DNA from: a virus
Strand: one strand, 5' to 3'
IMG/VR virus record: IMGVR_UViG_3300025030_000086
Location: 1 to 64,000 of that record
DNA: 64,000 nucleotides
Shown: one piece after another, positions 714 to 40,425 of the stretch
How positions within the stretch are numbered: the stretch's first letter is position 1
Layout of the letters: each line of letters starts with the position of its first letter
The notes under the pieces: model-generated
Told to the model about the DNA's origin: nothing
The model's database searches: none
Seen by the model: only the letters and a program-made list of their open reading frames with translations
Program-made: the position numbers and the translations under genes

Positions 714-743
714 ATTTTACTACAAAAAATCAAAAAAAATAAA
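714..743 (-). promoter_or_regulatory. Late-type promoter motif (copy 1)
   Basis: Read on the minus strand this 30-mer starts TTTATTTTTTTT and ends in a TAAAAT -10-like hexamer. It lies 32 bp upstream of the scaffold gene start at 682. The same 30-nt layout occurs at 9392-9421, 10971-11000 and, on the plus strand, 11093-11122, always upstream of late genes. There is no TTGACA-like -35. Confidence 0.5.
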
Positions 744-778
744 GGATTTCTTTACAGAATCAAGTATTTATGGTATAT

Positions 779-2203: not shown

Positions 2204-2624
2204 TAAATAATCTTTCTCCAAATCATCTTAATTCTGCAATCACATTCTTGCTCACCAACATTACCTAATCTTTTTATCCTCAAACCATCTAATGAAAACC
2301 CTGTCTCGTACAAATACAATAAATCAGCATCACGATTGTACAAATTCTCATCAACACGCCGGAAATCTGCAAATATATGACTTCCAATAAAGCGCATGGA
2401 TTCTATTGGTTTTTCTGGTATTGGAAATATGTCAAATAACTGAAGTGAAAAAGTTGTTTTAATATTTGAAAAAATCTGAATCCATCCTTGGTCTACATCC
2501 CAATCCGTATATATACCAAAAAGCTCATGCAGATTTATGTCTTTAGCTGTGTTATAACTAAATTTTGTATCAAAAAAAAATCAAAATAATAAAATCCAGA
2601 TCGCTCTTCAAATCTTGTAATCAT
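2203..2624 (-). pseudogene. Structural protein gene with a homopolymer frameshift
   Basis: An ATG at 2624, just beyond the lysozyme stop, opens a frame (MITRFEERSGFYYFDFF...) that ends after 29 codons. A second frame then continues without a start (FDTKFSYNTAKDINLHELF...) to the stop at 2203. The frames join at a run of nine A on the plus strand (2572-2580, T9 in the mRNA). Ten T would give one 140-residue protein. This is therefore a sequencing error, a phase-variable gene or a true frameshift. The joined protein has no motif I recognise. It sits between the endolysin and the fibre genes, so a tail or adsorption role is plausible. Confidence 0.6.
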
Positions 2625-2625
2625 T

Positions 2626-3141
2626 TTATGCCTTGTTTAATTCCTCTATCTTTTTTCTTAAATTATTAATCCTGTTATACCAACCCTTTTTGAACACACC
2701 CAGTTTTACATTTTTAGTAATAATTAAATCATAATATTCTTTTCTTCTATCAAGCATCCTATTACACATATCTAAATCTTTGTATAGTTTTAATCCATTT
2801 ACTGTTTGTTTACCAATCATACCATCTGCTTCTACTCCTATAGCTTTTTGTAATAAAATTTTTGAAGTTTTACACCCACAATTAATTCCAGTATCAAATA
2901 AAACTATTGATGTTAATGGGAAATTTAAAGTGATCAGTTCTTGGCAATAGGAAGATAACCAATAGTTTTTATAATATATTTCTTTTGCTCTATCTATTGT
3001 AAGATTTTTAATATCCTCTTTTGGGTAGTCTCGTTTGCAAATTCCAAACTTGGTCTCCCCCCCTGGATCTGAAACATTGTTTGAATATCCCCCCTCTGCT
3101 CCAATAGTAAAATTGAAAGCCTCAAACCAATAATTAATCAT
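2626..3141 (-). CDS. Endolysin, GH108-type muramidase
   Basis: The protein has 171 residues. Near the N-terminus IGAEGGYSNNVSDPGG matches the catalytic region of glycoside hydrolase family 108, with Glu about residue 16 as the expected acid and the following DPGG...T..GI motif intact. The C-terminal half (LLQKAIGVEADGMIGKQTV) matches the peptidoglycan-binding part usual in this family. It would cut the glycan strands of the cell wall at lysis or on entry. No signal peptide is seen, so export would need a holin or placement in the virion. Its position inside the structural genes allows either use. Confidence 0.85.
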   Translation of the reverse strand: MINYWFEAFNFTIGAEGGYSNNVSDPGGETKFGICKRDYPKEDIKNLTIDRAKEIYYKNYWLSSYCQELITLNFPLTSIVLFDTGINCGCKTSKILLQKAIGVEADGMIGKQTVNGLKLYKDLDMCNRMLDRRKEYYDLIITKNVKLGVFKKGWYNRINNLRKKIEELNKA

Positions 3142-3150
3142 ATATCTTCC

Positions 3151-3948
3151 TTATTCATTCGTTTCCAAACAACCACTATAAGATGCAGCAGCAAAACCAC
3201 CAACAGCATTAGACCAAGCTGTAACTTTTATAACAGCTAATTGCGGGATTTTCTTAGGCACGCTGAAATGTTTTGTATAAACAGAATTATTAAGATGTGC
3301 AGTATCATTAAATAAAAATACCCCATTAACTCTTGTTCCATGTGCTTCTGTAGCCCTTAATCTAAGTCTGGTAATTGTAGAAGTATTTGGTGCTATACAA
3401 CTTGCCGTCCATTCATGTAAATAAAATGTTTTATTGTAAGGAACCATACGTGATGTACTTAATGACATATTCCCACCTACAGAAATCATATTGTATACTG
3501 TAATAAGTGTACCATTAGCACATATTGATATATCACCACTTGCTACCGTACCGGAACCTACCAGTGTTGCATGAATAGCATTCACAAATCTAATATTGGT
3601 TCCAACTGTTCTAACAAAAGCCGTACCATTTAAATTAACAGTTTCATATTGTTCATTCCCAATAGCATCCAAATAATCAATTTCTACTTTTTGAATACCC
3701 GTACCATTTAATCTATCATCAAAATCAGATGATATAACCATCATCTGTTCTCCCCCGAATTGGTCAGGCCAAGGCTGTGCAACAGAAGTACCTCTCCAAA
3801 TATCTGACCCTACTACTACTATTTGTATATTATCTCTTTCACCAAATCCTAAAAATTCAGTCATCCCATCAATAACACCACGTGCAATCTCGGACTCCAT
3901 GCTATTTGATAAAACCCAATTTTCCGTTCTACGATGCAGATGGGGCAT
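3151..3948 (-). CDS. Phage virion structural protein
   Basis: The 265-residue protein has a layout I associate with a widespread class of virion proteins: an N-terminal SDIW...PWP segment, then SSDFDDRLNGTGIQKVEIDYL, VNLNGTAFVRT and a beta-rich C-terminal half. These are usually attached to the head, neck or fibre. It follows a canonical GGAG site (AAGGAGATGATTTA before the ATG). It is downstream of the HNH gene at 3978 and is probably cotranscribed with the protease. No enzymatic residues are visible. Confidence 0.6.
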   Translation of the reverse strand: MPHLHRRTENWVLSNSMESEIARGVIDGMTEFLGFGERDNIQIVVVGSDIWRGTSVAQPWPDQFGGEQMMVISSDFDDRLNGTGIQKVEIDYLDAIGNEQYETVNLNGTAFVRTVGTNIRFVNAIHATLVGSGTVASGDISICANGTLITVYNMISVGGNMSLSTSRMVPYNKTFYLHEWTASCIAPNTSTITRLRLRATEAHGTRVNGVFLFNDTAHLNNSVYTKHFSVPKKIPQLAVIKVTAWSNAVGGFAAASYSGCLETNE

Positions 3949-3977
3949 TAAATCATCTCCTTAATAATTAGATTTTG

Positions 3978-4769
3978 TTAAAGTAAACATTCTATAATCC
4001 TATTTATCATTATATTTTGATAAAATTCTGTAAAATAAAGTCTTTTTTTCTTACCATTTGTTTTCATATGACAAGAATCACAAAGAGTTATTAGGTTTTC
4101 TGAGTTACTATTCTTTTTGTTGTAATCAATATGATACACATGCAGTATATCATGTATTTCAGTGCATTCAGGATTTTGACACTCATAATTATCTCTTTCT
4201 AAAATAGATTGTTTTAAGGGTTTATTAAATTCTATTGGGTAGGGATTCTTTGAAATACCCTCCTGCCAATTAGGATTATTGCACCCTTTAGTTGTTCCAT
4301 TTTTTAACATTGTTTCGGATATTTTTTGTCTTTGTTCTTCTAAGATAACTCTACCTTTAAATGCTTTAGAATAATTTTCCTTTTGTTTTTCTGTTCTTTT
4401 TTTATCCGTGTTACCCAATTTTATTTTATTTTTAGTTTCCTCAGAAACAGTTCCCCCTTTATTCCACGAGATTAATCCAATGTGCCCTTTTGAAATATTT
4501 TGTCTGTGTTCTTCTGTTATTACTTTTCCTTTTTGAGATTCAGAATTTTTCTTATTAGATACTTCTGTATGCTTTTTACCATACATAGGGTGATTTTCCC
4601 CTTGATTATATTTAGGTCTACATTCTTTTTTTCCACAAGATTTTGCTACTAAACCACTGCCCAACTGTTTTTCAACTTCTTGTAAACAAACAGGGCATTC
4701 ATATAGAGAATGACTTGTATAATTACCATTTTTATTTTTTCTTGTTGGTAATTTTCTAATTAGTTTCAT
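3978..4769 (-). CDS. HNH homing endonuclease with NUMOD3 repeats
   Basis: The 263 residues comprise: an N-terminal zinc-ribbon-like module (residues 1-50, CPVC...KSCG) shared with other mobile genes in this window; two or three NUMOD3-type DNA-binding motifs (GENHPMYGKKHTE, SQKGKVITEEHRQNISKG); and a C-terminal HNH nuclease (about 190-245) with RDNYECQNPEC, HVYHIDYNK and NLITLCDSCH. The reaction expected is site-specific DNA cleavage that promotes copying of the gene. The start codon lies inside the 3' end of the protease gene, and the same bases encode that protein's last residues and stop. It separates the protease from the next structural gene. Confidence 0.88.
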   Translation of the reverse strand: MKLIRKLPTRKNKNGNYTSHSLYECPVCLQEVEKQLGSGLVAKSCGKKECRPKYNQGENHPMYGKKHTEVSNKKNSESQKGKVITEEHRQNISKGHIGLISWNKGGTVSEETKNKIKLGNTDKKRTEKQKENYSKAFKGRVILEEQRQKISETMLKNGTTKGCNNPNWQEGISKNPYPIEFNKPLKQSILERDNYECQNPECTEIHDILHVYHIDYNKKNSNSENLITLCDSCHMKTNGKKKRLYFTEFYQNIMINRIIECLL

Positions 4770-6547: not shown

Positions 6548-7335
6548 AGTAAGCACTCAACTATTTTGCTCATCAGGATGTTCTGGTAAAATTCTGTCCA
6601 ATATTGTCTATTTTTCTTCCCATTAGTTTTTGAATGACATGAATCACAAAGAGTTGTAAGATTATCTAAACTATTATTTTGTTTATCATAATCAATATGA
6701 TGAACATCCAATCCTTCGGATAAATGTTCACAGTTAGGATTTTGACAAGTATAATTATCACGTTCTAAAACTTGTGTTTTCTTTTCTTTGTTGAATTCAG
6801 GACTGTATGGTTCAAAACTTGAACCATTGTTCCAATTTGGTGATAATTCACCATATCTATGAACCCCATACATGGGATTATTTATTCCTCTTATTTTATC
6901 TCCATTACCATAATTAGGATTACTTTTTCCTGAAAGCAAAAAACCCTTCCCATACCAATAGTTATTTTCTCCCTTGCTTATCCCTTTTTCTATCCTTGTT
7001 TTAGACATTTTATCTAACGTCTCTTGTGAATAAACATTTATTTTTCCTTTATTCCAAGGTTCTTTGCCTAAGTGAAATTCTCTATTTTTTTGTTTAGATT
7101 CTTCTGTATGATTTTTATCATAAAAAGGGTTGTTTTCCCCTGAAAAATCCTTCCCCTTATTCAATTTGGAAATGAATTCTGACTTATTGCAACCACAAGA
7201 TTTTGCTTTCAACCCATTACTTAATTTTCTTTCTACTATTTTTCCACAATTAGAAATTTTACATAGAAATTCAGCCCAACTTCTTTTATATCCATTTTTA
7301 TCTGTCCTTGTTCCTAATTTTCTAAGTAATTTCAT
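6544..7335 (-). CDS. HNH homing endonuclease with NUMOD3 repeats
   Basis: A 263-residue paralogue of the 3978-4769 product, with the same zinc-ribbon N-terminus (MKLLRKLGTR...KAKSCGC), NUMOD3-like repeats (GENNPFYDKNHTEESKQKN, GKSNPNYGNG) and C-terminal HNH motif (RDNYTCQNPNC, DVHHIDYDK, NLTTLCDSCH). It is placed exactly between portal and MuF: its ATG overlaps the portal stop (TAATG) and its TGA overlaps the MuF start (ATGA). This is the arrangement of a homing gene inserted at an operon junction without breaking either neighbour. Expected activity is a double-strand cut at the empty junction in a related phage. Confidence 0.88.
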   Translation of the reverse strand: MKLLRKLGTRTDKNGYKRSWAEFLCKISNCGKIVERKLSNGLKAKSCGCNKSEFISKLNKGKDFSGENNPFYDKNHTEESKQKNREFHLGKEPWNKGKINVYSQETLDKMSKTRIEKGISKGENNYWYGKGFLLSGKSNPNYGNGDKIRGINNPMYGVHRYGELSPNWNNGSSFEPYSPEFNKEKKTQVLERDNYTCQNPNCEHLSEGLDVHHIDYDKQNNSLDNLTTLCDSCHSKTNGKKNRQYWTEFYQNILMSKIVECLL

Positions 7336-9383
7336 TATATATTTTCTTGGGCTATTTTAGCTCTACCTTTATTTAAGAATAGCATAGATTCTGAGCTTAC
7401 AATGTCTACTAAATTTTTATTCTTTATAGTCTCAAATTGAGATTTAATGTCATTTATAGTATCTTCAGAAGTTTTATTTTCATTAGTAAATGAGGTAAGG
7501 ACAAGTTCTACCCTATATTTTACATTATTAAAAAATTGATCCGTAAGAATTCTACTTCTGTCTTTTATTGAAGATTTGCCTTCTTTATCCACAACAGAAG
7601 CCTCCTCTATTTTAAGTTCCTCTAAAGCTGTCTCCTGTCCAAAAAGGTAACTTTCTTGCATTAATTTAGAAATAGTAGATAACACTTTTGACCTTAAAGG
7701 TTGCCACAAAAGAATATTTTCATTCTCTCCATCTGAAACTTTGGAATAAAATAAGTCTTCAATAGATAATTTATCCGATAATATTTTCTTAACTTTAGTT
7801 AAAATTTGTTCCCCCTGTTTATCAAAAATATTAACTAAATCAGCATAATAATTTTTTTCTAAACTATTCATTTTAGATTCAATTTCAGACAAGGAAGCAT
7901 TTTCCGTCAGATTTACGTCAGAAAATTTCTTTCCTTCGTCTTTTTTGACAACCTTATCCTTTTTATTGTCAATCTCATTATCCTTATTGTCAACCTTAAT
8001 TGAATTGTCAAGTTTTCCTTTACTGTTGTCTCTATTCCTTAATTGATCAGCTACAGTGGTTTCTTGCTCATCTGTGAGAGGTACGCCAACAACATCGGCG
8101 ATTTCTCTTGCAGCAGGAATAGCTGTTCCTTTTTTAATCATTTCCATAAATACATCTTTAAGAAATCCTTTTCTTGCCTCTGTGATACGCTCAATCTTTA
8201 TATAGCATTGTGGTGCTTTAGCACCAAAATTGTATTCAATTAAACGTCTAACAACATATTTATTTAATTGATTCTCAATATCTACTAATAGAGCTTCCTC
8301 ACCTAAAAGGAACATATCGGCGTGAGTTTGAGATAATGAATAAGAACCTGCCTTAGAAGAAGAGTCTTGCGTAATTGTCCTCTCAGGAACAAACATACCA
8401 CGCAACATCTTATTTTCAAAAAAAGTGAGAGCGGAAAGAAACATCTCCCCACGTTTATCATCTAATAAATAGTTTAAATCCCATTTGGGTGGGGTGTTTT
8501 CATATGTAGTAGAAGGTATTGCTATAACAGATTCACCAATAAGAGCTTTACCCATCTCCAATGCTATATCGGCGTGGTCAGTCCCATCCTTAGTTTGTCC
8601 AAGTGGGAATTTTACAATAACAGGTGGTGTCCCCTTGCGTTCAAAATACCTCATCATAAACTGAACTAATGAAATCCACCAATACCAACAATCGTAGGCA
8701 GGTTTTAATCTACTAACACCAAACAAATTACCAAAACTATCGCCTTTATCATGTGTAAAAATAAAGGATTTTTCAACAGGAATATGAATATCTTGCCCTA
8801 CCCACTTTTGAACAATCCCATCAAAGTTTTCCATCTCATCAAGTTTTATATTAACTGTATCTGGGTATAAGGATTTGAATTTTTTCCATACAACAGCTTT
8901 TTTGTCAAAGAAAGATTTTTTCTCATACTTGCGATTAAGAGTTGTATCTTGTACATCATAAACAATCTCATGTGCAGCAAATCCAAAGTCTACAGCAGTA
9001 AGTGTGGAAGTCAATAAGTTGTACCACATAGGTCTTAGTAATTGGTCAATAAATTCACCAATATCTTTATCATCACAAACAGTTGTCCATTGCTGACCAA
9101 TTATAGGTAGTTTTATAACCTTTAACCCAGCGGCTATTTGGGCGTTCATCCGTAGTTTATTATATGTATCTACCGAAATATCGTCTGGATTATATTGGCC
9201 CGCATAGGATTGAATAGCACCTGCTATTTGAGATAAAGGCCCACCATGCTTGGATAATTCACCTTTTTCTACTTTTTTAGAAATAGAATTGGTGAAATCC
9301 TCCAGCAACTTTGCATCTTTTTCAAAGATTTTCTGTACTTGCTTTAGATTTGGTGATTTTTTTAAAGACTTAGTTTTTGGCAT
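7335..9383 (-). CDS. Portal protein, Mu gp29/DUF935-like
   Basis: The 682-residue protein carries the DUF935 signature region (IAAGLKVIKLPIIGQQWTTV, LTAVDFGFAAHEIVYDV, FSFGNLFGVSRLKPAYDCWYWW-type segment, LRGMFVPERTITQDSSSKAGSYS). Such proteins form the dodecameric portal through which DNA is packed. The C-terminal roughly 220 residues add a charged linker (DNSIKVDNKDNEIDNKKDK) and a long helical part. This makes it longer than the usual portal of about 500 residues and could represent a fused MuF-like or internal segment. It is the first gene of the minus-strand head operon, behind the late promoter motif at 9392-9421. Confidence 0.87.
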   Translation of the reverse strand: MPKTKSLKKSPNLKQVQKIFEKDAKLLEDFTNSISKKVEKGELSKHGGPLSQIAGAIQSYAGQYNPDDISVDTYNKLRMNAQIAAGLKVIKLPIIGQQWTTVCDDKDIGEFIDQLLRPMWYNLLTSTLTAVDFGFAAHEIVYDVQDTTLNRKYEKKSFFDKKAVVWKKFKSLYPDTVNIKLDEMENFDGIVQKWVGQDIHIPVEKSFIFTHDKGDSFGNLFGVSRLKPAYDCWYWWISLVQFMMRYFERKGTPPVIVKFPLGQTKDGTDHADIALEMGKALIGESVIAIPSTTYENTPPKWDLNYLLDDKRGEMFLSALTFFENKMLRGMFVPERTITQDSSSKAGSYSLSQTHADMFLLGEEALLVDIENQLNKYVVRRLIEYNFGAKAPQCYIKIERITEARKGFLKDVFMEMIKKGTAIPAAREIADVVGVPLTDEQETTVADQLRNRDNSKGKLDNSIKVDNKDNEIDNKKDKVVKKDEGKKFSDVNLTENASLSEIESKMNSLEKNYYADLVNIFDKQGEQILTKVKKILSDKLSIEDLFYSKVSDGENENILLWQPLRSKVLSTISKLMQESYLFGQETALEELKIEEASVVDKEGKSSIKDRSRILTDQFFNNVKYRVELVLTSFTNENKTSEDTINDIKSQFETIKNKNLVDIVSSESMLFLNKGRAKIAQENI

Positions 9384-9391
9384 ATAAGAAT

Positions 9392-9421
9392 ATTATACAC
9401 CATAAAACCTAAAAAAATAAA
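9392..9421 (-). promoter_or_regulatory. Late-type promoter motif (copy 2)
   Basis: On the minus strand the motif runs from TTTATTTTTTTAGG to a perfect TATAAT, nine bases before the portal ATG at 9383. The transcript would therefore have almost no leader. The layout is identical to copies at 714-743, 10971-11000 and 11093-11122. Confidence 0.6.
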
Positions 9422-9986
9422 CGGATTTTAGACAGAGTTTGGCTAAAAGTATATTTTATATGAGGAAAACACCTATAATAGATAAATTTTTACATATGGA
9501 GTGTATTAATACAAATTTTTCATATTCTAAGAGTCCTTTCAGGACTGATGTTTAATATTTAAAATCCTTTCAGGATAATTCCTTCAGTGGTTTTGACTTT
9601 GAATTAAAAGTTTTTAGAAAGACGAACGAAACTGTAAGAAACAGCAAAGCTGTTTAGAAACAGTGTAGTTGAGTCAATAACAGAAAGTGTGTGAAACACA
9701 CTTGAAGGCGTTAGTCCGAATAAATTATATAAATAAAGTAAAGTATAGTAAACATAATACGACCTGTATAATACTGCTAAATGGTTTAAAAACCATCTCC
9801 ACTATTAGAAAGATATTTTGCTTGTTCGACTATTTTATATCCTAATAGTTTTCATACTCATTCCTATCAAATTAGACATAGGAATTTTAATGGTATGTCA
9901 TTTTTGCTATCGCACCTTAGCCTAAACAGTCTCTATTTGAAACTGCCCAATAGCTTCCTATCAAATGTAACATAGGAAGTTGCAAG
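9422..9986. ncRNA. Hairpin-rich non-coding block, candidate large structured RNA
   Basis: No supported ORF occupies these about 565 bases. They hold many short perfect inverted repeats: AGTCCT/AGGACT near 9530; ATCC/GGAT near 9575; AACAGC/GCTGTT near 9640; AAGTGTGT/ACACACTT at about 9685-9703; TGGTTT/AAACCA near 9782; ACTATTAG/CTAATAGT spanning about 9801-9849; and two related hairpins, TTCCTAT/ATAGGAA at about 9861-9884 and CTTCCTAT/ATAGGAAG at about 9954-9979, with near-identical loops. Local base composition is less AT-extreme than other intergenic DNA. The strand is uncertain. Loop purines favour plus, flanking gene direction favours minus. Large phage RNAs such as ROOL or GOLLD are similar in size and often near tRNA genes, but I cannot assign this to either. 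Confidence 0.45.
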
Positions 9987-10643
9987 TCATACAGGCACTT
10001 GATATTCAGTATATCTATGTGAATTTTTATAATGATTTTCTAATTTTTTAGCATTTGTACAATAAGCATGACAAAATTTACATTGAAATTTCCTATTTTT
10101 GAGAGCTTTTTCATTCTTACAAGGATTTATTCTATTTGTAATAACTTTTATTATTTCAAAGATATTCATTTCTACTTGCTCATTAGTAAATCTTAATATT
10201 TCAACATGGAAGGCTCTTTTTAATGTTTTTTCTCTCTGGTAATCCTTCTCCTTCTGTTCTGTGCTTCTGTGATAACCACCATCAATCTCTACAACTAAAT
10301 TTTGTTTTGGAAAATAAAAATCCGTGATATAAAAAAAATTGTGTTTTTTAAAGAAAAAACCTTTTTGAAAAATAAAAGAAGCTTTGCCAAAAGATTTAGT
10401 CAATTGAATGTTCATTAATTTTTCAGTATTAGTTGGATTTTTTCTTAATATTTGTATTCTTTCTTTCATCAAAGAAACATTTTCATCTATGTAGGCTTGC
10501 TTTTTTGGCTTATTTAATTTAATTTTTGTAATATCAATTTTTTCTTTCTTTTCCTCTTTCTTAATTAAAAAAGTAGCATAATTATCATACCATCTATTTA
10601 TTTGATACACTTTTGGCAGAGTCTTACTTATCATATTTCTCAC
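9987..10643 (-). CDS. DUF559 (Vsr-fold) endonuclease with C2H2 zinc finger
   Basis: The 218-residue protein has a central nuclease domain (about 70-165). Motifs are NPTNTEKLM (catalytic Glu), FYITDFYFP (Asp), VVEIDGGYH (Glu-x-Asp...His) and a further Asp in EKDYQREKTL, matching the DUF559/Vsr-like and EDxHD homing-nuclease arrangement. Residues about 184-210 form CKFC...HYKNSH, a classical C2H2 finger for DNA binding. The N-terminal 60 residues are Lys-rich. The combination suggests a free-standing homing endonuclease. It overlaps the stop/start with the 10640-10942 gene and borders the non-coding block. Confidence 0.75.
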   Translation of the reverse strand: MRNMISKTLPKVYQINRWYDNYATFLIKKEEKKEKIDITKIKLNKPKKQAYIDENVSLMKERIQILRKNPTNTEKLMNIQLTKSFGKASFIFQKGFFFKKHNFFYITDFYFPKQNLVVEIDGGYHRSTEQKEKDYQREKTLKRAFHVEILRFTNEQVEMNIFEIIKVITNRINPCKNEKALKNRKFQCKFCHAYCTNAKKLENHYKNSHRYTEYQVPV

Positions 10644-10942
10644 TTTTTCTTATTTTTCTGTAACCATTCTCTCCAATAAGCAATTGTTCTTGTTGGTTTA
10701 ACTTCTTGACCTTTTTCTTTCAAATATTTTATTTCTTCACTTGTTAAAAGTGGTATGTCATGCAAAGCTTCTACATATTTGCATTTATCACATCTATAAA
10801 ATGTATGGAGATGTGGCTGAGGTAAATCTTCTAAGACTTCCATAGGAATATCAGATATATCTATACCAGCTTTTAAAATATCAATATGTGGATAGATACT
10901 TATCTCCTCTATCTCTATATTGCATTTCTTACAATGTGTCAT
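10640..10942 (-). CDS. Zinc-ribbon protein of unknown function
   Basis: The 100 residues include two CxxC pairs (CKKC at residues 4-7 and CDKC near 52) that can bind one zinc, then an acidic segment and a basic C-terminus (WREWLQKNKKK). I do not recognise a named family. The gene is first after the late promoter motif 10971-11000 and is coupled to the DUF559 nuclease by a 4-base overlap. Confidence 0.6.
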   Translation of the reverse strand: MTHCKKCNIEIEEISIYPHIDILKAGIDISDIPMEVLEDLPQPHLHTFYRCDKCKYVEALHDIPLLTSEEIKYLKEKGQEVKPTRTIAYWREWLQKNKKK

Positions 10943-10970: not shown

Positions 10971-11000
10971 AGTATACTACAAAAATCTAAAAAAAATAAG
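10971..11000 (-). promoter_or_regulatory. Late-type promoter motif (copy 3)
   Basis: On the minus strand CTTATTTTTTTTAG is followed, at the same spacing as in the other copies, by TATACT as the -10. It lies 29 bp upstream of the 10942 start and just downstream of the tRNA gene. Confidence 0.55.
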
Positions 11001-11013
11001 CGTATTTATTTGG

Positions 11014-11085
11014 TTCACAGAATAGGGATCGAACCTATAACCTTTGATCCAAAGTCAAATATTTTACCAATTAAACTATCTGTGA
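11014..11085 (-). tRNA. tRNA-Gln (anticodon UUG)
   Basis: The minus strand folds into a full cloverleaf. It has a 7-bp acceptor stem (TCACAGA/TCTGTGA), T8-A9, a D-stem GTTT/AAAT with AATTGGTA loop, an anticodon stem TTTGA/TCAAA with loop CTTTGGA, and a T-arm ATAGG-TTCGATC-CCTAT, with discriminator A at 11014. The anticodon TTG reads CAA, a codon favoured in AT-rich genes. No CCA is encoded. It stands alone between two late-type promoter motifs. Confidence 0.93.
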
Positions 11086-11092
11086 TAAATCG

Positions 11093-11122
11093 TTTATTTT
11101 TTTAGGTTATATACTATATACT
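11093..11122 (+). promoter_or_regulatory. Late-type promoter motif (copy 4)
   Basis: TTTATTTTTTTAGG starts at 11093 and the motif ends with TATACT at 11117-11122, same layout as the three minus-strand copies. It drives the terminase cluster and is back-to-back with the tRNA gene. Its -10 belongs to the heptamer array that follows. Confidence 0.5.
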
Positions 11123-11220: not shown

Positions 11221-11790
11221 ATGATATTAATTAAAAAATTAGGCACTCGGTTAGATAAAAATGGTAAAAAACAAAGTTGGGCTATATTTAAATGTCCTAA
11301 ATGTCTACAGGAAGTTGTGAGATTATTGGGGAGTGGGGATAGTCAAAAATCCTGTGGGTGTTATACAAATGTAAAGCATAAAGGAAGTTATACAAGATTA
11401 TATAATACTTGGGCTATGATGAAACAAAGATGTTTAAATCCAAATGTAAAACAATTTAAAAATTATGGTGGTAGAGGTATAACTATATGCAATGAATGGT
11501 CAAATTTCACCCCTTTCAGGGATTGGTCACTAAATAATGGATATGCAGATAATCTACAAATAAACAGAATAAATAATGATGGTAATTATGAACCAAGTAA
11601 TTGTGAGTGGATTTCTCATAAAGAAAATGCAAGACATAGAAGAGGACAGAAAATAAATATGGAAAAAGCTAATGAAATTAGGGCTTTGTGGAATACAGGA
11701 AATTACACACAGAAAGAATTAGCTGAAAAGTATAATGTAAATAGAATAACAATTTCTAAAATAATAAATAATAAAACATGGAAAAATTAA
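11221..11790 (+). CDS. Homing endonuclease-like protein (zinc ribbon, YGGRGI body, HTH)
   Basis: The 189 residues form three modules. A zinc ribbon (1-58; CPKC...KSCGC) is shared with the HNH/NUMOD3 genes. A catalytic-type body follows (about 62-142; YTRLYNTW, KNYGGRGITIC, INRINNDGNYEPSNCEW). Last is a C-terminal helix-turn-helix (about 145-189; ANEIRALWNTGNYTQKELA...). The body resembles a phage HNH-like group in which a D/N-R-I...NCxW segment stands where HNH proteins have HHID...N. It ends one base before the terminase ATG, so it is inserted immediately upstream of terL. Catalysis is inferred, not shown. Confidence 0.75.
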   Translation: MILIKKLGTRLDKNGKKQSWAIFKCPKCLQEVVRLLGSGDSQKSCGCYTNVKHKGSYTRLYNTWAMMKQRCLNPNVKQFKNYGGRGITICNEWSNFTPFRDWSLNNGYADNLQINRINNDGNYEPSNCEWISHKENARHRRGQKINMEKANEIRALWNTGNYTQKELAEKYNVNRITISKIINNKTWKN

Positions 11791-13371
11791 ATGCTTATTA
11801 AAAAGAAAAAAATACTTCCTCCTGAATTAAATGAAGATAATCTTAGACGTTACGTAAAGAACCGGATGGATTTTAGACGGGAGCAGTTTGTATTAGAACC
11901 ATCTCTTGATTTTCCAGAAGGGGGTTTATTTGGAGACTTGTGTCAGCAATGGCAGATAGACTATATATTTAAGCCAATTGATTTGAGAGATGAAAAAGGA
12001 TTTCCATCTTACAGATTGCTTTATATTGGTTTACCTAAGAAATTTGGGAAAACAGCTCTTTTGGGGGGTGAGTGTCTTGTTCAACTATTACTTTCACCCA
12101 GACCAACAGAGGAGAATTATATTTTATCAGGAGACAAGTTTCAAGCCGCTTATTTATTACAAAAAATTAAGGATTTTATAGCTCGTAATCCTAATTTTGT
12201 TGATTTATTCACAATATATAAAAATGAAATAATCGTACCAAGCACGGGTGCAATGATTCAAGTAATGAGTTCAGAAGCCTCATCCAAGCAGGGGCGTAAC
12301 CCAGACTTCTACATTTTTGATGAATTTTGGAATCAGCCAAATAGAGATTTATTTGATACTATGTTCTTGGGGCAAGCAGCCAAACCCTCGTCTCAAGGGA
12401 TTATAATTACAAATACGGGTTACGACAAAAAGTCAATTTGTTGGGAAACACATGAATTATGTCGAAGTGGCGATTTTAAAAACTTTTATTTCTTTGAACC
12501 AACTGGGGTGTTGCTTGAATCTTTAAAAACTCCTTGGATTTCAGAACAATGGTTTGAAATAGAACGTAAATCCATGCCCCCAAAAGTATTTAACCGATTT
12601 CGTAAAAACCTCTGGGTTGATGAGGGAGAACATCCTTTTATGCCAGATGAAGGATGGAAATGTTTTAAATCATATCTTTCAGAAAAATCCATATGTTATA
12701 AAGGCCCTCATTATGTAGGAATAGACCTTGGATTAAAAAAGGATGCAGCTTCTTTAACAGTTCTCCATAGAGCAGGAAGAAAATTGGAAGGGGACATGTT
12801 TAGGAGATGGTTAGGTAGTTCAGAAAATCCTGTAAAGATAAGTGAAATAGAAGATGAATTGATAATGATATTAAGAAATTTCCATGACTGTGTTTTAGTT
12901 TGTGATCCCTGGCAATTAATGGGAACTATACAAAGATTCAGGAGTGTTGGCATTGAGGTCATTGAATTTTATTTAACAGCAGAGAATATTGGAAAATTAA
13001 GTCGTAACTTATTTTACCTATTTAAAAATCAATCCTTAGATTTGCCAAAATATTCAAAACTTGAAGATGAATTGAAAGGACTACAAGTAGTTGAGAAAAG
13101 TTATGGATGGAGGATTGACCATAGTGAGGATACAAGTAGTGATATTACAATGGGTTTAGGTATGGCTGCGGTCGTTGCAATGGAACGTGGGATTGATACC
13201 TATAGCGGAAAAGATTTAGCGGATTTGGGTTTCTTGAATCAAAAATCTATTTTTAAATCAGGTGAAAAAAGAGATTTTATGGAAAAAATTGAAATTATAG
13301 AAAATAAAGTAGATGTGGATAAAACTAATGCAGGCCCAAAAGTGTTTAGCTTTTCTAAGAGGCAATTTTAA
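11791..13371 (+). CDS. terL: Terminase large subunit
   Basis: The 526-residue packaging motor has an N-terminal ATPase with Walker A GLPKKFGKTAL (about residues 80-90) and Walker B FYIFDEFW (about 170-178), then a coupling motif region (IIITNTGYD). The C-terminal RNase H-like nuclease starts YVGIDLGLKKDAASLTVL with its catalytic Asp, and further acids occur in VLVCDPW and near HSEDTSSD. It cuts concatemers and pumps DNA through the portal. The gene lies on the plus strand, opposite to the portal, and is bracketed on both sides by homing-type endonuclease genes with zero or one-base gaps, a typical sign of a homing hot spot. Confidence 0.93.
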   Translation: MLIKKKKILPPELNEDNLRRYVKNRMDFRREQFVLEPSLDFPEGGLFGDLCQQWQIDYIFKPIDLRDEKGFPSYRLLYIGLPKKFGKTALLGGECLVQLLLSPRPTEENYILSGDKFQAAYLLQKIKDFIARNPNFVDLFTIYKNEIIVPSTGAMIQVMSSEASSKQGRNPDFYIFDEFWNQPNRDLFDTMFLGQAAKPSSQGIIITNTGYDKKSICWETHELCRSGDFKNFYFFEPTGVLLESLKTPWISEQWFEIERKSMPPKVFNRFRKNLWVDEGEHPFMPDEGWKCFKSYLSEKSICYKGPHYVGIDLGLKKDAASLTVLHRAGRKLEGDMFRRWLGSSENPVKISEIEDELIMILRNFHDCVLVCDPWQLMGTIQRFRSVGIEVIEFYLTAENIGKLSRNLFYLFKNQSLDLPKYSKLEDELKGLQVVEKSYGWRIDHSEDTSSDITMGLGMAAVVAMERGIDTYSGKDLADLGFLNQKSIFKSGEKRDFMEKIEIIENKVDVDKTNAGPKVFSFSKRQF

Positions 13372-27824: not shown

Positions 27825-28010
27825 ATGAAAACAATAGCAAATATATTAATAAGTTGTACAATATCGGTATGGGTATATATTTTATTTTTTGAGTCTTTGG
27901 TAAATACTTTTTTATATCAACCATTATTGGCATTAGGTCTTATATTCATAATTTATTATATTATATTTTATTTATTGGAGACATATGACAAAATACAAAA
28001 AGGGTTATAA
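27825..28010 (+). CDS. Two-span membrane protein
   Basis: 61 residues with two hydrophobic helices (NILISCTISVWVYILFF; LLALGLIFIIYYIIFYLL). Possible leaderless mRNA from the promoter at 27791. Unknown role. Confidence 0.55.
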   Translation: MKTIANILISCTISVWVYILFFESLVNTFLYQPLLALGLIFIIYYIIFYLLETYDKIQKGL

Positions 28011-28263
28011 AGTTGTTCAAAAAAGCACTTTAATTTCTTGTTCTATTCTGAATAAAGGTATTAAATACAAAGTAAATGATTGGGTTAAACCTAGGAAAGA
28101 TTGTGGGCCTTTGTGTGTATTTGATTCTTTATCATGTATTAAAAAATATTAATCCCATAACACAGATACTATTTATGAATGTTTATATGAACCAGATTTA
28201 GAAGAAAATTTTGTATATTTACAAACTTCATCAGTATTTTTGAATTTGCCATATTTAACATGA
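27985..28263 (+). pseudogene. Phage hypothetical gene interrupted by an in-frame TAA
   Basis: ATG 27985 opens 55 codons (MTKYKKGYKVVQKSTLISCS...CGPLCVFDSL) to TAA 28150-28152. The same frame continues for 36 sense codons (SHNTDTIYECLYEPDLEENFV...) to TGA 28261-28263, which overlaps the next ATG. The whole resembles a known phage family (YKVV...CGPL.VF...FECEYEP). The stop therefore seems to be a recent nonsense change or a read-through site. Confidence 0.6.
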
Positions 28264-29868: not shown

Positions 29869-29892
29869 TTTTTCCCAATTTTTTCAATAGTT

Positions 29893-30613
29893 TAGACATA
29901 CCCCCTAACATAAATAATTTATATCTATTGGCAATCCTGAAAAATATGGTCGGTATTTTTATACCCCATCCGGCTTATTTCTCGCTTGCAATTAAAAATA
30001 ATCACTAAAGTATTGATTTTATTGATATTTTTGGTGATGGTCTGTTAATAACTTTTGTGAATAATAAGACATTCTTTTACATATTAGTTGCATAAAAGCG
30101 TAAACTATTGATTTTATTAATGTTTATTTATGGTTTACACTTCTGATATACTGTAAACCTCATATAGGAATGTTTCACTTTGAAACATTATAGACAATAA
30201 ACTGAACATCATAATTAGTGAATAAATGTCTATTAGTTGATATACTATACCTCATATACACTATATATTGTATAATAAGTAATAAAATACTATAGATTAT
30301 CAGATATATGAGTAATGATATGTTATATCTATAAGACTAAAGAAATAGAATAAAGCATTATACTATAGATTGCTATACATGATAGATGTTATTAAAATAA
30401 TAATAGAAGCTGATCATATACATGTTAATCATAAATCCGGTTAATGGTAGTAAATATATAAAATAGACATTAATAACTATATATGCTATAGATATATAAT
30501 TTAACACTTAATAGGGGGTTATATATGCAGTCTGTTTAATAGCAGACTTACATACATAAATAATCATTAATCTTTTAATAGGATATTGCTTATATAGGAT
30601 ATCCTATTTTTTT
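29893..30613 (+). ncRNA. Large structured non-coding block, candidate RNA gene
   Basis: About 720 bases without a supported ORF. A promoter-like TAGACA-N16-TAATTT sits at the left end and a terminator (30577-30613) at the right. Between them are strong inverted repeats: GGTTTACA/TGTAAACC (30132-30139/30152-30159), AATGTTTCA/TGAAACATT (30169-30177/30181-30189), TAGACA/TGTCTA near 30190-30230, AGTCTG/CAGACT near 30530. Repeats include ATTGATTTTATT twice and ATACTATAGATT twice. The pattern suggests a long structured transcript. An AT-rich replication-origin segment is the main alternative. Confidence 0.45.
30577..30613 (+). terminator. Intrinsic terminator
   Basis: AATAGGATAT (30577-30586) pairs perfectly with ATATCCTATT (30599-30608), loop of 12, and the stem runs into seven T. 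It ends any transcript from the left. Confidence 0.8.
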
Positions 30614-30795
30614 ATCTCTACACTGCCATATCCTTGTTTTAATCCACTTTTTATTACTCCACTTATATCTTAGTATTGTTTATCTGTATAACCTGCTATA
30701 CAGGCGGATAAGCGTTATAATTAGTATTTATTAATTATTGACAAAAACAAAAAAAGTATTATTATAATAATAGAACATCATTTCAGGGGATTAAA
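30614..30795 (+). promoter_or_regulatory. Promoter region of the small-gene cluster
   Basis: No gene. It contains CCTG/CAGG hairpin bases near 30700 and a promoter TTGACA (30738-30743), 16-bp spacer, TATTAT (30760-30765; TATAAT three bases further). An AGGGG site precedes the ATG at 30796. Confidence 0.5.
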
Positions 30796-38740: not shown

Positions 38741-40425
38741 AAACAATCCATATTAAAGATAATGTATTAATAATAAAGATACCGTATGATATTAATCTTG
38801 TATCATTAATCAAGACTTTCTTTTCCGGTAGGTCATGGGATAGCAATTTAAAAGTCTGGAAGTGCCCTGTAAATGAAAAGAATTTAATAGCTACCTACTC
38901 CATGATAGAAAATCATGACTTTACTGTATTTCCTGAAATGATGATTGAACTCGAAAAATATAAAGGACAATTTGAAATACAGAAGGTTGAAAATGAAAAG
39001 AAGATAGCAGCCTCAAAAGCTATAGATGCAAATATTGAGATACCTAATTTGAAGGGAGAACTCTTCCCGTTTCAAAAAGCAGGAGTGCAATTCATAGAAA
39101 ATACCAATGGTAAAACCTTAATAGCTGATGAAATGGGGTTAGGGAAGACCTTGCAATCAATAGCTTATTGCCAATTACATGCAGAAAAAAGACCTATTTT
39201 AGTTATTTGTCCAGCAACATTAAAGTTGAATTGGCAAAGAGAATTTAGAAAATGGACAAATATAAAAAGCTATGTTATAAATTCGCAAGATCTCAAATAT
39301 CAGCTACCTATCTATGAAGCATACATTATTAATTATGATATAGTGGGGAAAATGGAAACATTGCTGAATAAGATGAAATTTCAAGTAATGATATTGGATG
39401 AAGCACATTATTTGAAAAACCCAAAAGCATTACGGTCAAAAGCAATAAATGGATTAAATAAGAATATACCCCATATTTTGGCATTAACTGGTACACCAAT
39501 ACTTAATAGACCTGTTGAAATATTTAATATTTTAAAGATGTTAAGTCCTCAAAATTTTGGCAATTATTTTGATTTTGTGAAAAGATATTGTGGAGCTACC
39601 TATGGAAAATGGGGTCTGGATGTATCAGGAGCTACCAATATTCAAGAATTAAGTGATAAATTACGAGCAACAGTAATGATCAGAAGGGAAAAAAAGGATG
39701 TATTGGCAGAATTACCAGACAAGACAAGGGTAGTAGTCCCTCAAATATGTGATTTAAAAGCATACAAAAAAGTAGAGGATGATTTAATAAATTACTTAAT
39801 TGAATCAAAGAATAAGTCAAAACTTGCAGCGGAAAAAATTAGTCAAGTAGAACAATTGGCAAAAGTTGAATATGCAAAACAGGAAGCGGTTAAAGCAAAA
39901 CTCCCCCTATTTATTGAATGGAGTAAAGATTTTATTGAGGAAAATGGTAAATTAGTAATTTTTGCTCATCATAAAGAATTTGTTGAAAAGTTAATGTTTG
40001 AACTGAAGGACTATAATCCGGTTAAAATAGTGGGTGGTATGGAAATTGAGGATAAACAATCCTCAATAGATGCTTTCCAAAATAATAAAGAATGTAAAGT
40101 AATTATTTGTAGTCTAAAAGCCGCTGGTGTTGGGATAACTTTAGTTGCAAGTAGTTATGTAGCATTTTTAGAGTTAGGATGGACACCCGGTGAACATGAT
40201 CAGGCTGAAGATAGACTACACCGGATAGGGCAGAAAGATAATGTTACTTGTTATTATTTTTTGGCAGAAAATACTATTGAGGAAACAATTTACGATCTAC
40301 TTCAGAAAAAAAGAGATATTTTTCAAAAACTAATGCAAGATCAACATACAATTATAGGAACTCTTGATAATAATATTCTGAATGATTTAACAAATAAAAT
40401 AGTAAATAAAAATGAAGTTAATTAG
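38737..40425 (+). CDS. SNF2-family DNA helicase/translocase
   Basis: 562 residues. A small N-terminal domain (1-100) with FFSGRSWDSNLKVWKCPV precedes the helicase core: motif I ADEMGLGKTLQS (about 129), II ILDEAHYLKN (about 220), III LALTGTPILN, and in the second lobe VIICSLKAAGVGITL and motif VI QAEDRLHRIGQ. The N-terminal wrap resembles HARP/SMARCAL1-like proteins. It should translocate on duplex or forked DNA, aiding replication restart. The C-terminal residues (KNEVN) overlap the start of a homing endonuclease gene. Confidence 0.92.
   Translation: MKTIHIKDNVLIIKIPYDINLVSLIKTFFSGRSWDSNLKVWKCPVNEKNLIATYSMIENHDFTVFPEMMIELEKYKGQFEIQKVENEKKIAASKAIDANIEIPNLKGELFPFQKAGVQFIENTNGKTLIADEMGLGKTLQSIAYCQLHAEKRPILVICPATLKLNWQREFRKWTNIKSYVINSQDLKYQLPIYEAYIINYDIVGKMETLLNKMKFQVMILDEAHYLKNPKALRSKAINGLNKNIPHILALTGTPILNRPVEIFNILKMLSPQNFGNYFDFVKRYCGATYGKWGLDVSGATNIQELSDKLRATVMIRREKKDVLAELPDKTRVVVPQICDLKAYKKVEDDLINYLIESKNKSKLAAEKISQVEQLAKVEYAKQEAVKAKLPLFIEWSKDFIEENGKLVIFAHHKEFVEKLMFELKDYNPVKIVGGMEIEDKQSSIDAFQNNKECKVIICSLKAAGVGITLVASSYVAFLELGWTPGEHDQAEDRLHRIGQKDNVTCYYFLAENTIEETIYDLLQKKRDIFQKLMQDQHTIIGTLDNNILNDLTNKIVNKNEVN

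Follow-up and report, generated by a model that had tools for sequence, protein, structure and literature searches.

A roughly 600-base gene-free stretch beside a phage portal gene probably makes a previously undescribed structured RNA

A gene-free stretch of ~600 bases bordering the portal gene of an uncultivated bacterial virus probably makes a structured RNA that has not been described previously. The stretch (here referred to as the block) lies in the first 64,000 bases (positions 1 to 64000) of a 73,157-base virus record, and we refer to these 64,000 bases as the window. Judging from its sequence and that of its relatives, the block most likely specifies a lineage-specific, late-expressed structured noncoding RNA. 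For the left half (~9486 to 9716, + strand), we rate as slightly better than even the reading that it is a phage-encoded structured noncoding RNA gene, restricted, as far as we found, to one clade of uncultivated phages. An RNA gene is supported because the position is conserved, the hairpins covary, and relatives carry stacked tandem-GA helices. The first-pass annotation had suggested both an RNA gene and a kinship with the phage RNAs ROOL and GOLLD; the former is supported, but the latter is not. At the level of titles and opening portions of abstracts, the papers listed in literature searches contained no description of this RNA; PMC12286853 and PMC2864571 were also consulted.

Up to 11 kb, the genes of the window are transcribed leftward; between 11.2 and 48 kb, they are transcribed rightward, and GC skew tracks gene direction. 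The block, delimited as a gap free of ORFs of at least 60 aa, had been placed at the divide between terminase and portal and next to a tRNA gene. Both the portal gene and terL were confirmed with Pfam and PHROGs, yet two leftward genes, the tRNA gene, and an HNH gene separate the block from terL (Table 1). The tRNA-Gln is real but ~1 kb away. ARAGORN found a tRNA in the related loci L003 and L004 and none in L005 to L008 or L056, so the closeness of the tRNA is incidental. The DUF559 nuclease gene flanks the block in the window and L003 and is absent from L004; L008 has DNA resembling part of it.

Table 1. Positions in the window of the block, its predicted elements, and the neighboring genes and promoters
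Feature	Position	Strand	Remarks
Further site of the promoter class	714-744	-	GTTTATTTTTTW with TATAAT at the fixed 25 nt
Portal gene	7335-9383	-	Portal_Mu (Pfam), PHROG 113
ORF-free block	9384-9986	.	603 nt; portal start to 3' end of DUF559 nuclease gene
Portal promoter	9392-9422	-	GTTTATTTTTTW plus TATAAT at 25 nt, 0 mismatches; at block border
Candidate promoter for + strand RNA (start ~9486)	9449-9479	+	Same layout, 2 mismatches; inside block
Left unit, predicted structured RNA	9486-9716	+	From fold z; 5' and 3' ends inferred
Hairpin A	9522-9558	+	Outer helix 9522-9526/9554-9558, inner stem 9532-9536/9542-9546, loop UUUCA
Hairpin B	9564-9576	+	AUCC-UUUCA-GGAU
Composite helix C	9621-9675	+	Purine internal loops; inner stem AACAGC-AAA-GCUGUU
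Hairpin D	9683-9705	+	Loop GAA on a stem of 8 bp with basal tandem GA
AT-rich middle linker	9720-9745	.	AATTATATAAATA in common with L003
Right unit	9745-9986	.	Two near-identical hairpins, about 9860-9887 and 9954-9981
DUF559 nuclease-like gene	9987-10643	-	3' end borders block
100-aa gene	10640-10942	-	No family match
Promoter-layout site before 100-aa gene	10971-11001	-	Same layout, 1 mismatch
tRNA-Gln	11011-11085	-	~1 kb from block
terL-side promoter	11092-11122	+	Same layout, 0 mismatches
HNH gene	11221-11790	+	Between tRNA-Gln and terL
terL	11791-13371	+	Pfam and PHROGs

The description of the block as hairpin dense and noncoding was borne out by the ORF-free gap and by an excess of stems over shuffled sequence. 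Counting perfect, non-overlapping stems of at least 6 bp with loops of 3 to 12 nt, we found 8 in positions 9422 to 9986, where at least seven had been claimed; 500 dinucleotide shuffles gave an expectation of 2.15 (sd, 1.36) and reached 8 once. When the window was cut into 635 segments (565 nt, step 100), 4 held 8 stems, three of them at 30.3 to 30.5 kb and one overlapping the block. The two near-identical hairpins noticed earlier are indeed present, with a spacing of 94 nt and 85% identity, as is a pair of hairpins with a common core (TCCTTTCAGGA at 9534 and 9565). The statement that the genome has almost no intergenic DNA did not hold, as the window contains 11 gaps of at least 200 nt, among which the block is the second largest. 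The largest, at 29869-30795 (927 nt), is AT-rich, equals the block in stem density, and is perhaps an origin or regulatory region. Folded as a whole, the block gave z scores of -3.22 (+ strand) and -3.62 (- strand) against 150 shuffles; an earlier calculation with 20 shuffles of a slightly longer stretch had given -5.35 and -3.77.

Scanning viral sequences for relatives of TerL and of the portal protein gave five distinct blocks that adjoin a portal gene, namely, those of the window, L003, L004, L008, and L056. L008 stands for L005 to L007 as well, the 720 bases from the promoter motif onward being identical, and the L009 sequence stops short of the block. The position beside the portal gene is maintained in all five, down to the 60% identity between the L056 and window portals. 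The first 200 nt of the block can be aligned at ~83% among the window, L004, and L003, and beyond this point the window and L003 have only short collinear words in common, such as AATTATATAAATA and TTTTGYTTGTTCGAC. In L056, the portal promoter is separated from the RNA by a 570-aa ORF (723-2435) that reads as homing nuclease-like, an insertion that we saw in none of the other four, and the portal frame is broken into two overlapping ORFs (2493-4195) by a frameshift or an assembly error. Two genome scans returned no further homologs. A pattern search for hairpins A and B gave nothing besides L003 and L004, and one for the promoter motif plus hairpin gave 24 stretches, all judged by inspection to be chance save the known relatives. 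Distant portal relatives (L064 to L068; 32 to 36%) have no gap of at least 150 nt at the portal gene. Against phage records, the L008 and L056 blocks had no match, and the best 20 of 53 matches to the window block all had E values of at least 2; a match in Enterococcus phage EF1 was rejected as a homolog, its neighboring genes being unrelated.

Conserved secondary structure with compensatory changes, the feature generally looked for in phage noncoding RNAs, was found in hairpins A, B, and C, albeit in few sequences, the covariation resting on the five distinct ones. The UUUCA loop of hairpin A is invariant in all five. Its inner stem is AGUCC/GGACU with GUUCC/GGAAC in L056 as the sole variant, and its outer helix differs in L003 and L056. 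Double changes affect 5 of the 10 pairs of hairpin A in alignment A6, a count equalled in 1 of 500 shuffles and including one doubtful case, the L008 change at columns 11-43, which is probably in the wrong register. In the same alignment, 94.0% of cells are paired, compared to 81.9% after shuffling and 26 to 46% in slid versions. A model of hairpin A recovered its five training sites alone in 77 sources (850,027 bases; E ≤ 10), a result that speaks to specificity only. The stem of hairpin B is AUCC/GGAU in the window and L003 and GUCC/GGAC in L004 and L056; this hairpin was not seen in L008.

Farther into the left unit, composite helix C was stable (z of -5.00 on 9618-9680; 0 of 200 shuffles). 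Its hairpin reads AACGCC-AAA-GGCGUU in L003, with two double changes relative to the window in a comparison of two sequences whose shuffle control was weak (138 of 500). The counterparts of hairpin D in L003 and L056 are arms of 2- to 3-bp segments split by tandem GA. These stacked arms comprise 7 bp and 2 GA in L003 and 10 bp and 3 GA in L056 (0 of 400 shuffles each), and RNAfold draws both unprompted. Two or more stacked tandem GA were found nowhere else in 8 loci, both strands included; L008 has one tandem GA (reached in 56 of 400 shuffles), the window has one, below the 8-bp stem of hairpin D, and L004 has none. Tandem G·A pairs and GNRA-type loops make sense on one strand only, which here is the + strand.

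The same features can be set against a DNA-level site, such as an origin or the pac site raised in the first-pass annotation, at which the inverted repeats would act as DNA. Such a site would suit a place between portal and terL, near the switch in transcription direction, and inverted repeats that share an invariant core. However, the arms of hairpin A change jointly around a fixed asymmetric spacer, TTTCA, the reverse of what DNA operators usually show; little sequence conservation was detected in the right half; and the tandem-GA helices are strand-specific. We therefore regard a DNA site as improbable.

Thermodynamic folding separates the strands poorly. The z scores of the left unit on the + strand were -2.77 (window), -3.03 (L004), -2.61 (L003), -6.89 (L008), and -1.93 (L056), and those on the - strand were -2.06, -4.16, -1.75, -4.57, and -2.20, respectively. 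Across 128 control windows, the mean was -0.4 (sd, 1.36), with 5 at or below -3; the strongest fold among these controls lies at 40001-40230 of the window (-4.87 on the + strand and -4.85 on the - strand). Isolated hairpins were not unusually stable (z of -0.68 for A, -0.60 for B, and 0.08 for the L056 GA arm).

A tandem-GA hairpin also occurs in other phages. The 15-mer of this hairpin that L008 and L056 have in common (GTGAGTGAAACGAAC) matches 101 IMG/VR stretches and occurs 99 times in 96 new loci (L070 to L165), in 78 distinct contexts on unrelated contigs. Fifty-six of the 78 contexts lie outside ORFs of at least 100 aa, compared to 20.6% of bases. The helix extends by at least 2 pairs in 17 of 77 usable contexts (partner-shuffled mean, 7.8; top of 1,000, 15), and a further GA/GA step is present in 10 of the 77 (shuffled mean, 3.2; highest, 8). 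Across the 14 loci checked, Rfam at cut-off matched nothing but two tRNAs, both in L123. The hairpin thus resembles that of L008 and L056 in its core and in lying mostly outside ORFs, but it differs in its many unrelated contigs and in having no match to the hairpin A model in those scanned. As far as we found, this hairpin of phage intergenic regions has no name.

Promoters in this region share a layout in which TATANT follows 25 nt from the first base of GTTTATTTTTTW. With up to 2 mismatches, the layout matches 8 times in the window, compared to 1.19 expected (0 of 100 shuffles); chance probably accounts for some of the sites with two mismatches. An identical layout lies upstream of the portal gene in L003, L004, L008, and L056. 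By alignment reading, the spacing of the candidate RNA promoter inside the block is preserved in L003 and L004, whereas L008 and L056 show no clear counterpart of this promoter. Because the portal ATG follows TATAAT by 8 nt, the portal mRNA should be near-leaderless. An A-rich motif at 9403-9422, which recurs before the tRNA, was considered and rejected as a promoter driving the RNA: read on the reverse complement, it has TATAAT at the fixed 25 nt in the direction of portal and of terL, so it serves those genes. A long helix drawn by RNAalifold (columns 46-65/85-105), which overlaps the inner promoter, was dropped together with that promoter model. A short ORF at 9460 was likewise rejected, since every codon difference between the window and L004 is nonsynonymous and none is silent.

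The right unit shows little detectable sequence conservation (short motifs only), and its fold z scores (-2.54 on the + strand and -3.52 on the - strand) follow no pattern across relatives. All five sequences have a positive GC skew in the left unit, which is the sense-strand sign of rightward genes in the window, and a negative one in the right unit, with the flip at mid-block. The two halves may therefore be transcribed towards each other, in which case the right half would be part of a leftward transcript.

This skew switch also fits a cis-acting buffer, in which a short rightward transcript and the leftward operon of the nuclease and 100-aa genes would converge and end in the block, the hairpins stopping or processing them before the portal promoter, with no trans-acting RNA. 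The leftward genes do adjoin the block, the - strand folds about equally well, and there are 3 terminator-like stems compared to 0.2 expected. Those stems, however, have poor U-tracts and tails that read as unconserved. Tandem-GA arms and a loop that stays invariant while its stem covaries moreover exceed what a terminator would need. We consider the buffer unlikely, although it is the alternative to which we give most weight.

We also weighed whether the block is the remains of a protein gene or the scar of a mobile element, with hairpins arising by chance, as genes for HNH and DUF559 nucleases are common nearby and the L008 block adjoins DNA that resembles part of the nuclease gene in the window. 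When open frames of the window, L003, L004, L008, L009, and L023 were compared with four blocks, self or trivial matches and one further frame were obtained. That frame corresponds to the conserved first 170 nt and is open in L003 and broken by stops in the window and L004. Protein similarity inside the blocks being limited to this stop-broken frame, and given the stem excess and covariation, a decayed gene appears highly improbable.

Under the preferred reading of a structured RNA gene, the + strand RNA would start near 9486 and probably be transcribed rightward from a promoter laid out like the portal and terL-side ones, hence probably late in infection, a timing that we infer from the genes these promoters serve. 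Counting against this reading, no clear terminator was found on the + strand. Sequence comparison shows its fixed parts to be the two UUUCA-loop hairpins and, in several members, a rigid arm in which tandem G·A pairs separate short Watson-Crick segments. Invariant loops on covarying stems would probably be functional contacts, either with a protein or with GAAA-type loops, whether in the same copy or in a second one. In 4 of the 5 sequences, a hairpin carries UGAAA, the complement of UUUCA, in or at its loop. Because 49 to 106 of 500 shuffles per sequence also have such a hairpin, this complementarity, which would allow the loops to kiss, is only suggestive. The right half would be the 3' part of this RNA or, as the skew suggests, the end of a leftward transcript that converges with it. 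A far more specific proposal, that the whole block is a new ~500-nt RNA with copies joined by kissing of UUUCA/UGAAA-type loops into an assembly like those of ROOL and GOLLD but unrelated to them, expressed late next to the packaging genes and with a possible part in head assembly or packaging, seems very improbable to us. Known structured phage RNAs are few and their roles mostly obscure, and a small, defined RNA beside packaging genes would offer concrete, testable parts in its invariant loop and structural-gene-type promoter.

The proposed resemblance to ROOL and GOLLD found no support in Rfam, which gave no meaningful match in the block or its four relatives. At gathering scores, the tRNA alone was found; at E values up to 10 or 5, the window, L003, L004, and L008 blocks gave short rows far below the cut-offs, and at E ≤ 1 the L056 block gave none. 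At E ≤ 10, the ROOL covariance model matched nowhere in the complete record, and it was also silent on control genomes. The GOLLD model gave one 27-nt row at 28006-28032, 18 kb away, which scores 5.3 bits where the cut-off is 150 and is chance. Similar length, the phage context, and a tRNA ~1 kb away would favor a divergent ROOL or GOLLD RNA, but with no match to the covariance models, we hold this to be extremely unlikely. Like ROOL (RF03087), which spans ~570 positions, the block is phage encoded, has many hairpins and an obscure function, and ROOL too is sometimes found near tRNAs. It differs in that its conserved parts are short hairpins, most of its length not being alignable, and in its setting, a single tRNA ~1 kb off in place of the phage tRNA island expected of ROOL. 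ROOL also forms a homo-oligomeric cage by way of kissing loops; the block offers in this respect the UUUCA/UGAAA loop complementarity described above, which is only suggestive. GOLLD (RF02032) is likewise a large phage-encoded RNA with one half conserved and the other variable. According to PMC12286853, its conserved region is the 3' one, universally so, whereas here the conserved half is the 5' (left) one.
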